The notes under the pieces: model-generated
Database searches by the model: none
Told to the model about the DNA's origin: nothing
Seen by the model: only the letters and a program-made list of their open reading frames with translations
Shown: positions 16,689 to 44,720 of the stretch, piece after piece
How positions within the stretch are numbered: the stretch's first letter is position 1
Layout of the letters: each line of letters begins with the position of its first letter
Made by a program: the position numbers and the translations under genes
Assembly (NCBI RefSeq): GCF_004340785.1
Contig: NZ_SLXS01000005.1
Coordinates: 62,001-126,000 of the forward strand
Direction of reading: 5' to 3'
Length of the DNA: 64,000 nucleotides
From: Tumebacillus sp. BK434
GTDB lineage: Bacteria; Bacillota; Bacilli; Tumebacillales; Tumebacillaceae

Positions 16689-16818
16689 GAGGCCTCCTCC
16701 TTTCGTTAGCTGTCTATTCACCTGCAATCCGACACGCTTGCAGTCTTTTTGCAGACCTGTAATCTTCTTGCCGAGCTGTAGTCTTCTTGCAGTCTGCTTG
16801 ATTTTTACATCCAGCGTT
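16689..16818. repeat. mutM-polA spacer with degenerate short repeats
   Basis: 130 nt containing two imperfect copies of a roughly 20-nt unit built on CTGTARTCTTCTTGC (about 16756-16795), with further CTTGCAGTC-like echoes on either side. No gene or terminator is seen; possible slippage product. Confidence 0.4.
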
Positions 16819-35515: not shown

Positions 35516-38500
35516 TTAGTTTTTCCGCATTTTTTTGACAACCGCGCCCTGTCCCAGCAGGCCCTCCACCGCCGCCACAAACTGCGGTGTCATCGCCACG
35601 GCATACCGCTCCGACAGCTCCCGCGCCTTGCGCGTCGCCGTGTAGAACAAGAGCACCGGCAGCGTTCCATGGAACCTCGTGATCACCTGCTGAAGCTCCG
35701 CGAGACGAGATTCATCCTCCGGCCGGATGCGCAGATAGACGACCGCCTGCTCTTGGACTGCACCAGTTCCCTTTGCCTGCACGTTCACAGATCTCGCATC
35801 ATTCACAAGACTTGCATCATTCACAAGCCTTGCATCATTCACAAGCCTTGCATCATTCACAGCTCTTGCATCATTCACAGCTCTTGTCTCATACTCGACA
35901 TTCGTCTCCGGTTCGATCGCTTTGATCTGGTCCGCGATGATCTTCACTTCATCCCCGCGCTGCTGCAGGCGTCCGCGGACGGCGATCACTTCGGTGTCCA
36001 GCAGGGGCTCGGCGCGTTTGAACACTTCCGGGAAGAGGACGACTTCGGCGAGACCTGTGGTGTCCTCGACTTCCAGGAACGCCATGCGGGCGCCTTTTTT
36101 GGTCTGGATCTTCTTGGCCTGGCGCAGCAACCCGCAGACGGTGACGCTCGCTCCGTCCGGGGTGTCGGCGAGCTCGATGATCCGCTTGTCGGCGATCTGC
36201 TCCATCCGGCGGCGGTACGGTGTCAGCGGCGACCCGGTCACATACAGCCCGAGCAGTTCCTTCTCCATCTCCAGCCGCTCGCGCACGGTGAAATCGCCCG
36301 TCTCCGGCAAAATGAACTTCCGCTGTTTCTGCTCCCCTTGCCCTTCGATCAGCCCGAACAGGCTCATCTGGCTGTCATCATGCTCCTTTTGCTTCACCCG
36401 CCCCTGCTCCACCGCTTCTTCCAGCGCCAGCAGCATCGCCCGGCGGTTGCCGTGCAGTTCGTCAAAACAGCCGGCGCGAATCAGCGACTCGATCGCCTTC
36501 TTGTTGCACGACCGCGCATCGACCCGCTCGCAAAAATCGACCAGATCGGCAAACGCCTGCTTGCGCCGCGTCTGCACCAGCGACTGAATCGCCGCCACGC
36601 CGACATTTTTGATCGCCAGCAGGCCAAAACGTATTTTTCCATTCTCCACCGTAAACCGGTACGTGCTCTTGTTCACATCGGGCGGCAAGACCCCGATGTT
36701 CATCCGCCGCGCATCGTCCACATACTGCGCCACCTTGTGCGACGACATCATCACGCTCGTCAGCAGCGCCGCCATGTAGGCAGCCGGATGGTTCGCCTTC
36801 AAATAACAGGTCTGGTAGGCCAGTACCGCATACGCCGCCGCATGCGCCCGGTTGAATCCGTAATCGGCAAAGCGCACGATCAAATCATACACCTCATGGG
36901 CCAGCCGTTCCTCGTAGCCCTTTTGCAGACAGCCGTCCACAAAGATCGCCCGCTGCTCGTCGAGCACGTCGCGCTTCTTCTTGCCGACCGCACGCCGCAG
37001 AAGGTCTGCCTGCCCCAGCGAAAAGCCGGCCATCGTCGAGGCGATCTGCATGATCTGCTCCTGATAGACGATCACCCCGTACGTATCTTCCAAGATCCCT
37101 TGCAGATCGGGATGCGGATAGCGGACCGCCACCTCGCCGTGCTTCGCTTTGATAAAGGTCGGGATGTTCTCCATCGGACCCGGGCGGTACAGCGAAATCA
37201 CGGCGATGATATCTTCAAACGAAGACGGGCGCAGCTCCCGCAGCACATGTTTCACCCCGGACGACTCCAACTGGAAACACCCGTCCGTATCGCCGCGGCA
37301 GAGCAGCTCAAACGTCCGCGGATCGTCCATCTCCATCTCCGCAAAACGAATCTCCCGGCCCTCCGTCTGCTTGACGATCTCGATCGTCTGGTCGATCAGG
37401 CTCAGATAGCGCAAGCCCAGAAAATCCATCTTGAGCAGCCCGACATCCTCCAGCACTTCCATCGAGTACTGCGTCACGACGCCGCCTTCCGCCCCGCGCT
37501 GCAATGGCACATACTCGGTCAAGGGAGCTTTCGAGATCACCACGCCTGCCGCATGCAGTGACGTGTGCCGGGGCAGCCCTTCGATCTGGCGGGCAGTATC
37601 GACCAGCTTGCGCACCTGCGCATCGGTCTGGTAGTACTTTTGAAACTCATCGTCTTCCAGCGCCTTCCCGATGGTGATGCCGAGGAAGTGCGGCACCCGT
37701 TTCGTCGTTGTGTCAACCACGCTCTGCGGCAGGTCGAGCACCCGGCCGACATCGCGAATCGCAGCGCGGGCGGCCATCGTTCCGAACGTGACGATCTGCG
37801 CCACGCGGTCCGCGCCGTATTTGGCGGTCACGTAGTCGATCACTTCCCCCCGCCGCTCAAATTCAAAGTCGATGTCGATATCCGGCCAGGAGATCCGCTC
37901 CGGGTTCAAAAAGCGCTGAAACAGCAGATTGAACTTGATCGGATCGACGTCGGTGATCCGCAGCACGTACGACACCAGACTGCCGGCTGCCGACCCGCGC
38001 CCCGGCCCGGTCGAGATGCCGTTCTCATGAGCAAACCGCATGAAGTCCCACACGATCAAAAAGTAGCCCGAGAAGCCCATCGACCCGATCACGTCCAGCT
38101 CATAGCGCAGCCGCTCCCACACCTCCGGTCCGGGGTTCCCGTAACGCATCCTCGCTCCCTGTTCGCACAAGTGCGCGAGATACGTCTGTTCCGTATACCC
38201 CGGCGGCAGGTCAAACGCGGGCAGATGCGTTTCATTCAGATTGAGCTCGACGTTGCAGCGGTCGGCGATCACCCGCGCATTGTGCAGCGCCTCTGGAAAA
38301 TGCGAAAACAGCGCCGTCATCTCCGCGTCTGACTTCATATAATATTGGTCGGTCAGCAGGCGCGGCCGGTTCTCTTCTCCGATCGTCCGCCCTTCGCGAA
38401 TGCAGGCCAACACGTCCTGCACCGGCGCTTCTTCCGGCAGCAGGTAGTGGACGGCGTTGGTCACGACGAGCGGCAGATTGACCTTGTAGGACAGCTGCAC

Positions 38501-39067
38501 CAGATTCTGCACGACCTGCTTTTCCTCCAAAATCCCATGGTCCTGCAGTTCGAGATAGAAATTGCCTTTGCCAAAGATCGCCGCGTATTCATTTGCCGCA
38601 TGTTCCGCAGCCAGCAAGTCGCCTTGTTGAATCTTCTGCGCCACTTCGCCTTCCATCCCGGAGGACAACGCGATCAAGCCTTCGCGATGGCGTTTCAGCG
38701 CCTGCTTGTCGGTGCAAGGCAGCATCCCGGCGCTTTCCAGTTGCGCCTCCGAGACGATCTTCAGCAGATTGCGGTACCCGGCCAGATTCTCCGCGAGCAG
38801 CACCAGCCGGTACGGTTCCTCCCCGCGCATCATACGATCGCGCAAGCTCCCCCGCGCCACCAGCACCTCACAGCCCAGAATCGGCTTGATCCCCGCCCTC
38901 TTCGCCTGCTTATAAAACTCCACCGCCCCGTACATCACCCCGAGATCGGTCATCGCCACCGCATCCATGCCCAGATCGGATGCCCGCTCCACCAGCTCGT
39001 CGATCCGGCACAAGCCGCGCAGCAAACTATATTCTGTATGTACATTCAGGTGGACGAACCCGTTCAT
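35516..39067 (-). CDS. dnaE: DNA polymerase III subunit alpha (DnaE)
   Basis: An 1183-aa replicative polymerase of the DnaE type. N-terminal PHP domain (VHLNVHTEYSLL), a palm with GPGRGSAAGSLVSYVLR and the catalytic PDIDIDF (about 395-401), then NRAHAAAYAVLAYQTCYLKA, a helix-hairpin-helix region and an OB fold (about 970-1050; VTVCGLLRQAKKIQTKKG). Residues about 1059-1094 are six copies of a six-residue unit (DARLVN and variants) encoded by an 18-bp tandem repeat, which is unusual for this protein. AAAGGGGG precedes the ATG. In Bacilli DnaE works beside PolC, extending RNA primers on the lagging strand. Confidence 0.95.
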   Translation of the reverse strand: MNGFVHLNVHTEYSLLRGLCRIDELVERASDLGMDAVAMTDLGVMYGAVEFYKQAKRAGIKPILGCEVLVARGSLRDRMMRGEEPYRLVLLAENLAGYRNLLKIVSEAQLESAGMLPCTDKQALKRHREGLIALSSGMEGEVAQKIQQGDLLAAEHAANEYAAIFGKGNFYLELQDHGILEEKQVVQNLVQLSYKVNLPLVVTNAVHYLLPEEAPVQDVLACIREGRTIGEENRPRLLTDQYYMKSDAEMTALFSHFPEALHNARVIADRCNVELNLNETHLPAFDLPPGYTEQTYLAHLCEQGARMRYGNPGPEVWERLRYELDVIGSMGFSGYFLIVWDFMRFAHENGISTGPGRGSAAGSLVSYVLRITDVDPIKFNLLFQRFLNPERISWPDIDIDFEFERRGEVIDYVTAKYGADRVAQIVTFGTMAARAAIRDVGRVLDLPQSVVDTTTKRVPHFLGITIGKALEDDEFQKYYQTDAQVRKLVDTARQIEGLPRHTSLHAAGVVISKAPLTEYVPLQRGAEGGVVTQYSMEVLEDVGLLKMDFLGLRYLSLIDQTIEIVKQTEGREIRFAEMEMDDPRTFELLCRGDTDGCFQLESSGVKHVLRELRPSSFEDIIAVISLYRPGPMENIPTFIKAKHGEVAVRYPHPDLQGILEDTYGVIVYQEQIMQIASTMAGFSLGQADLLRRAVGKKKRDVLDEQRAIFVDGCLQKGYEERLAHEVYDLIVRFADYGFNRAHAAAYAVLAYQTCYLKANHPAAYMAALLTSVMMSSHKVAQYVDDARRMNIGVLPPDVNKSTYRFTVENGKIRFGLLAIKNVGVAAIQSLVQTRRKQAFADLVDFCERVDARSCNKKAIESLIRAGCFDELHGNRRAMLLALEEAVEQGRVKQKEHDDSQMSLFGLIEGQGEQKQRKFILPETGDFTVRERLEMEKELLGLYVTGSPLTPYRRRMEQIADKRIIELADTPDGASVTVCGLLRQAKKIQTKKGARMAFLEVEDTTGLAEVVLFPEVFKRAEPLLDTEVIAVRGRLQQRGDEVKIIADQIKAIEPETNVEYETRAVNDARAVNDARLVNDARLVNDASLVNDARSVNVQAKGTGAVQEQAVVYLRIRPEDESRLAELQQVITRFHGTLPVLLFYTATRKARELSERYAVAMTPQFVAAVEGLLGQGAVVKKMRKN
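35784..35891 (-). repeat. 18-bp x 6 in-frame tandem repeat within dnaE
   Basis: Six consecutive 18-bp units (plus-strand form TTCACAAGCCTTGCATCA). Units 3 and 4 are identical; the others differ at one to three positions. The length keeps the frame and yields DARLVN-type hexapeptides between the OB fold and the C-terminal region. Confidence 0.95.
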
Positions 39068-44471: not shown

Positions 44472-44574
44472 TCCATCATCTCCTAGAATCTAAACAACTT
44501 ACACGACTAAGGCTATCGCCTATTTTGTGGTGTGTCAACGCATCCTATAGAATGCGGGAGTGTATCCTCGCCAG

Positions 44575-44720
44575 CAATATGTTTCGACTTGCAAGACGCT
44601 ATCTTCACCTGCAACATGCTTCTACTTGCAAGACGCTATCTTCGCCTGCAACATGCTCCTACTTACAAAGCGCTATCTTCGCCTGCATCATGCTTCTACT
44701 TACAAGGCACTATCATCACG
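44575..44720. repeat. 37-bp x 4 intergenic tandem repeat
   Basis: Four tandem units of 37 bp (44575-44611, 44612-44648, 44649-44685 and a 35-bp last copy at 44686-44720), each containing ACTTGCAAGACGCTATCTTC or a variant. They lie between the GT-C gene start and the ytoI stop. No gene is seen in 44472-44731. Copies differ at several positions, so the array is not recent. Confidence 0.9.

Follow-up and report, generated by a model that had tools for sequence, protein, structure and literature searches.

The DNA studied here, called the window below, is a stretch of 64,000 nucleotides from Tumebacillus sp. BK434 (assembly GCF_004340785.1, contig NZ_SLXS01000005.1, positions 62,001-126,000 of the forward strand). 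On its minus strand, at 35516-39067, lies an intact dnaE gene encoding a DNA polymerase III alpha subunit of 1183 amino acids, identified from its open reading frame and from Pfam and NCBIfam matches. The Pfam matches of the product are PHP, DNA_pol3_alpha, DNA_pol3_finger, HHH_6 and the tRNA_anti-codon OB fold, the last at residues 975-1049. Four parts by which a DnaE-type Pol III alpha is recognised are thus present: PHP, polymerase core, HhH and a C-terminal OB fold. In NCBIfam, the protein passes the thresholds of PRK06826 and PRK05673 and falls short of that of PRK06920.

The OB fold is followed by a linker, delimited by alignments and by model confidence (pLDDT) at about residues 1055-1108 (approximately 35744-35905, minus strand), which is predicted to be disordered. 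After it, alignments and the model place a C-terminal domain at about residues 1109-1183, taking up 35516-35743 on the minus strand together with the stop codon. All 7 family genomes conserve this last segment, to which the model gives secondary structure; no Pfam domain was matched in it or in the linker. Excerpts of PMC3919608 report a C-terminal domain after the OB fold in 91% of DnaE1 and 60% of DnaE3 proteins. The order PHP, polymerase core, HhH, OB fold, C-terminal segment is common to the window's DnaE and the DnaE-type Pol III alpha families PRK06826 and PRK05673, but the window's protein has a longer, repetitive linker ahead of the C-terminal segment.

A PolC is also encoded in this Tumebacillus genome (1779.5 bits, above the cut-off), and therefore DnaE is probably not the sole replicative polymerase of the organism. 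In Bacilli, PolC is usually partnered by a DnaE, which is DnaE3 in the scheme laid out in excerpts of PMC3919608, and an excerpt of PMC5627055 names PolC as the main polymerase of B. subtilis.

A six-unit array in the linker

Codon alignment and Tandem Repeats Finder (TRF) delimit six in-frame units of 18 bp at 35780-35887 (minus strand), corresponding to residues 1061-1096. In order, the units read TRAVND, ARAVND, ARLVND, ARLVND, ASLVND and ARSVNV. Comparison of the DNA shows that units 3 and 4 (ARLVND ARLVND, 36 bp, 35816-35851, minus strand) are identical. Units 1-5 differ from each other at 0-4 of 18 bases, and their GTG AAT GAT part is invariant; unit 6 is degenerate, with 5-7 differences from the others.

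TRF describes the array in two rows, one with period 18 (5.7 copies, score 139, 35784-35886) and one with period 36 (score 155, 35784-35879). The higher score is well beyond what shuffling gives: 100 dinucleotide-shuffled versions of dnaE reach at most 58, and 50 shuffled versions of the window at most 61. The six-copy in-frame repeat described in the initial annotation is therefore real, and the two identical copies mentioned there are units 3 and 4. Its placement between the OB fold and the C-terminal domain is also borne out, as the array comes after the OB-fold match and before the conserved segment. The coordinates given there, 35784-35891, have the right length of 108 bp but are offset by 4 bp from the codon-aligned position.

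The base composition of the array sets it apart from the gene around it. Over its first 34 codons the array has a GC3 of 0.26, the lowest value of all 34-codon windows in the gene, tied with two windows that overlap the array; in dnaE outside the linker region GC3 is 0.80. The AGA codon, too, is absent from dnaE outside the linker region. Together with the invariant GTG AAT GAT, the low GC3 and AGA are more in line with copied DNA than with prolonged selection for the protein sequence, but the base composition alone does not date the expansion.

Coding minisatellites are in-frame tandem arrays with units longer than about 9 bp that are more alike than expected by chance, restricted to a lineage and variable in copy number between strains. 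The units of the dnaE array are in tandem, more alike than by chance and keep the frame, and the array is restricted to its lineage, being absent from close relatives (6 of 6 other family genomes) and unmatched in 397 other sampled class genomes. That copy number, and with it length, varies between strains, as the initial annotation expected, is plausible.

The linker in related genomes

To describe the linker we used AlphaFold2 on the last 300 residues of DnaE, with 7 sequences, which gave a model of moderate quality (mean pLDDT 62). Blocks over the OB fold reach pLDDT 84-88, and the C-terminal segment lies mostly at 55-76. Below 50 are construct residues 173-223, that is, residues 1056-1106 of the protein, and this points to a flexible linker. 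A low-confidence helix covers the first two units (construct residues 174-189); with a model of only moderate quality, the repeat could thus still be folded.

The length of the linker is far from constant. Counted together with about 16 framing residues, the linker segment has 71 residues in the window compared with 20-57 in 12 other genomes of the order; a thirteenth, in which the anchor is missing, was only viewed. By eye, no sequence in the middle of the segment is conserved across these genomes. The initial annotation had named a fixed-length conserved segment in all related DnaE proteins as the observation that would speak against its reading, and this is not what is found, as the lengths differ. 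In addition, 11 of 12 Brevibacillus loci viewed have short linkers by eye.

The twelfth locus, Brevibacillus dissolubilis, carries about 130 extra residues at the linker site (L033 2001-3143). They are rich in P, T, S and E and unrelated to the array, the dnaE match spans 1143 instead of 753 bases, and no tandem repeat scoring at least 40 was found in this insert. Evidently the linker site accepts long additions.

Since the segment is variable in relatives and predicted to be disordered, it is unlikely that the expansion disturbs a conserved part of DnaE. For the same reasons the importance that the initial annotation implied for the repeat is not supported.

Six other genomes of the family, two congeners and four others, were compared: Tumebacillus avium, T. 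flagellatus, T. lacus, T. permanentifrigoris and two more (G001 and G003). The repeat is absent from the DnaE of all six. The nearest is the sister species T. avium, 90% identical over 451 columns, and the tree places the window with it (support 99/94). This tree has 46 rows, a midpoint root and flagged long branches; the window is represented by its residues from 701 on, with 48% of columns filled. From a common anchor to the end, the protein has 259 residues in the window, 230 in T. avium and 236 in G001, the other congener, which is a net growth of 29 and 23 residues, respectively. The array does span 36 residues, about the number that had been proposed as inserted, but the net growth is smaller because a shorter linker already exists in the relatives.

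The 26-residue linker of T. avium contains the stretch P-A-N-D-A-R, which matches the unit in frame at 15 of 18 bases. When this linker is shuffled by codons, just 3 of 2000 shuffles reach such a match, a figure uncorrected for the scoring of six relatives. For the other five the best match is 9-12 of 18 bases and is equalled by 100 to 1915 of 2000 shuffles; in G001, the next nearest after T. avium, it is 10 of 18 (830 of 2000), which is no better than shuffled sequence gives.

Origin of the array

We consider it very probable that the array is a nearly neutral coding minisatellite that arose by slippage in a disordered linker, an ordinary expansion. The ancestor shared with T. avium probably already had a unit-like stretch, encoding N-D-A-R, in its dnaE linker, and replication slippage or unequal recombination would then have raised the 18-bp unit to six copies in the window's lineage. 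The match in T. avium makes slippage from such an existing seed the most likely way in which the array grew; amplification of a single ancestral unit would be the simplest history. Two features may have let the expansion be tolerated: a unit length divisible by three, and a location in the flexible tether that joins the OB fold to the C-terminal domain and seems to be under little constraint in length and sequence.

The initial annotation had taken the array as recently expanded by slippage. It does look recent: neighbouring units are identical, the repeat is absent from all six family genomes, and T. avium has a single unit-like stretch. Slippage itself is likely, and from the features above we infer both this mechanism and near-neutrality.

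A strong DNA hairpin promoting slippage is unsupported by the folding of either strand. As DNA, the coding strand of the array folds slightly better than its shuffles (z -1.5, 14 of 200 as good) and the opposite strand shows no advantage over its own (z 0.3; 121 of 200 as good), and therefore no strong hairpin accounts for the instability.

A different possibility is that the longer linker has been kept by selection because it alters the reach of the C-terminal domain to a replisome partner, so that copy number tunes the polymerase. The window's segment is indeed the longest among the 13 order genomes compared, the window included, and in E. coli the C-terminal domain binds the tau subunit, according to excerpts of PMC3919608. 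However, linker length varies widely among the compared relatives and the codons of the array are untypical of dnaE. According to the same excerpts of PMC3919608, SSB keeps B. subtilis DnaE3 at the fork, and they suggest that DnaE3 depends less on its OB fold and C-terminal domain, although the tree does not fix whether the protein studied here is a DnaE1 or a DnaE3. Taken together, we regard selection on the linker as improbable. More improbable still is a contingency-like control of replication, in which copy number varies by strain and the length of the tether alters the hold of the second replicative polymerase at the fork.

It is also very unlikely that the array belongs to a mobile or dispersed repeat family and entered dnaE as one of its copies. 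The third-position composition, unlike that of the rest of the gene, would agree with this, but the search for other copies, made in its own genome and in sampled genomes of the order and class, disfavours it. With up to 2 mismatches the 17-base core of the array has no second site in its own genome, where the next match of the peptide reaches only E 0.169. Among 13 other order genomes there is a single weak peptide match (G008, E 0.04, 47% identity), and none of the 397 other sampled class genomes has one at E 0.001, so that of 398 genomes only the window's own is found. Further, the unit-like stretch was already seen in the linker of T. avium.

Finally, the genome is in 32 contigs and the copy number is that of the assembly, but with an array of just 108 bp, only two identical units (36 bp) and a preserved frame, an assembly artefact is hardly credible.

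The array resembles coding minisatellites in disordered regions such as those of Borg elements, as described in excerpts of PMC9879509: unit length is divisible by three, and the repeat is lineage-specific, apparently recent and predicted to be disordered. It differs from them in that it stands alone, lies in the gene of a housekeeping polymerase and is read from one strain. It leaves existing knowledge of DnaE unchanged, serves as an example of a housekeeping enzyme that tolerates repeat expansion in a linker, and may be of use as a marker for strain typing. No mention of a repeat in the dnaE linker was found among the titles and beginnings of abstracts listed by searches of an open-licence library, which leaves its absence from print unproven.

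Other tandem repeats in the genome

In 396 kb of the genome, TRF reports seven rows with a score of at least 100, two of which are the dnaE array. One row sits in no frame of at least 150 amino acids, and the other four belong to infB (two), to a frame of 410 amino acids and to the array at 44563 of the window. The infB gene (L105 3037-5490, identity by Pfam) has two adjoining in-frame arrays with periods 24 and 21, of the GGNRPGGQ and NNRGG types, ahead of its IF2_N match. These arrays are comparable to that of dnaE and agree with the minisatellite reading. As infB is essential in model bacteria, the dnaE array is not the genome's only case of an in-frame array in an essential gene. A frame of 410 amino acids (L091 9034-10263, minus strand) contains an in-frame repeat of 210 bp in 2.2 copies; Q, G, S, Y and N are abundant in the frame, RIHQNSL motifs occur in it, and Pfam gives no match.

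Within the window, a 37-bp unit, which is not a multiple of three, is repeated 4.1 times at 44563-44714 (TRF score 206). This array probably lies between genes, the overlapping frame being taken as incidental. With up to 3 mismatches its unit has no other site in the genome; a unit common to this array and that of dnaE was considered and rejected, given the sole site at 44563 and no likeness by eye. At 16744-16792 a 19-bp unit is present in 2.6 copies (TRF score 70).
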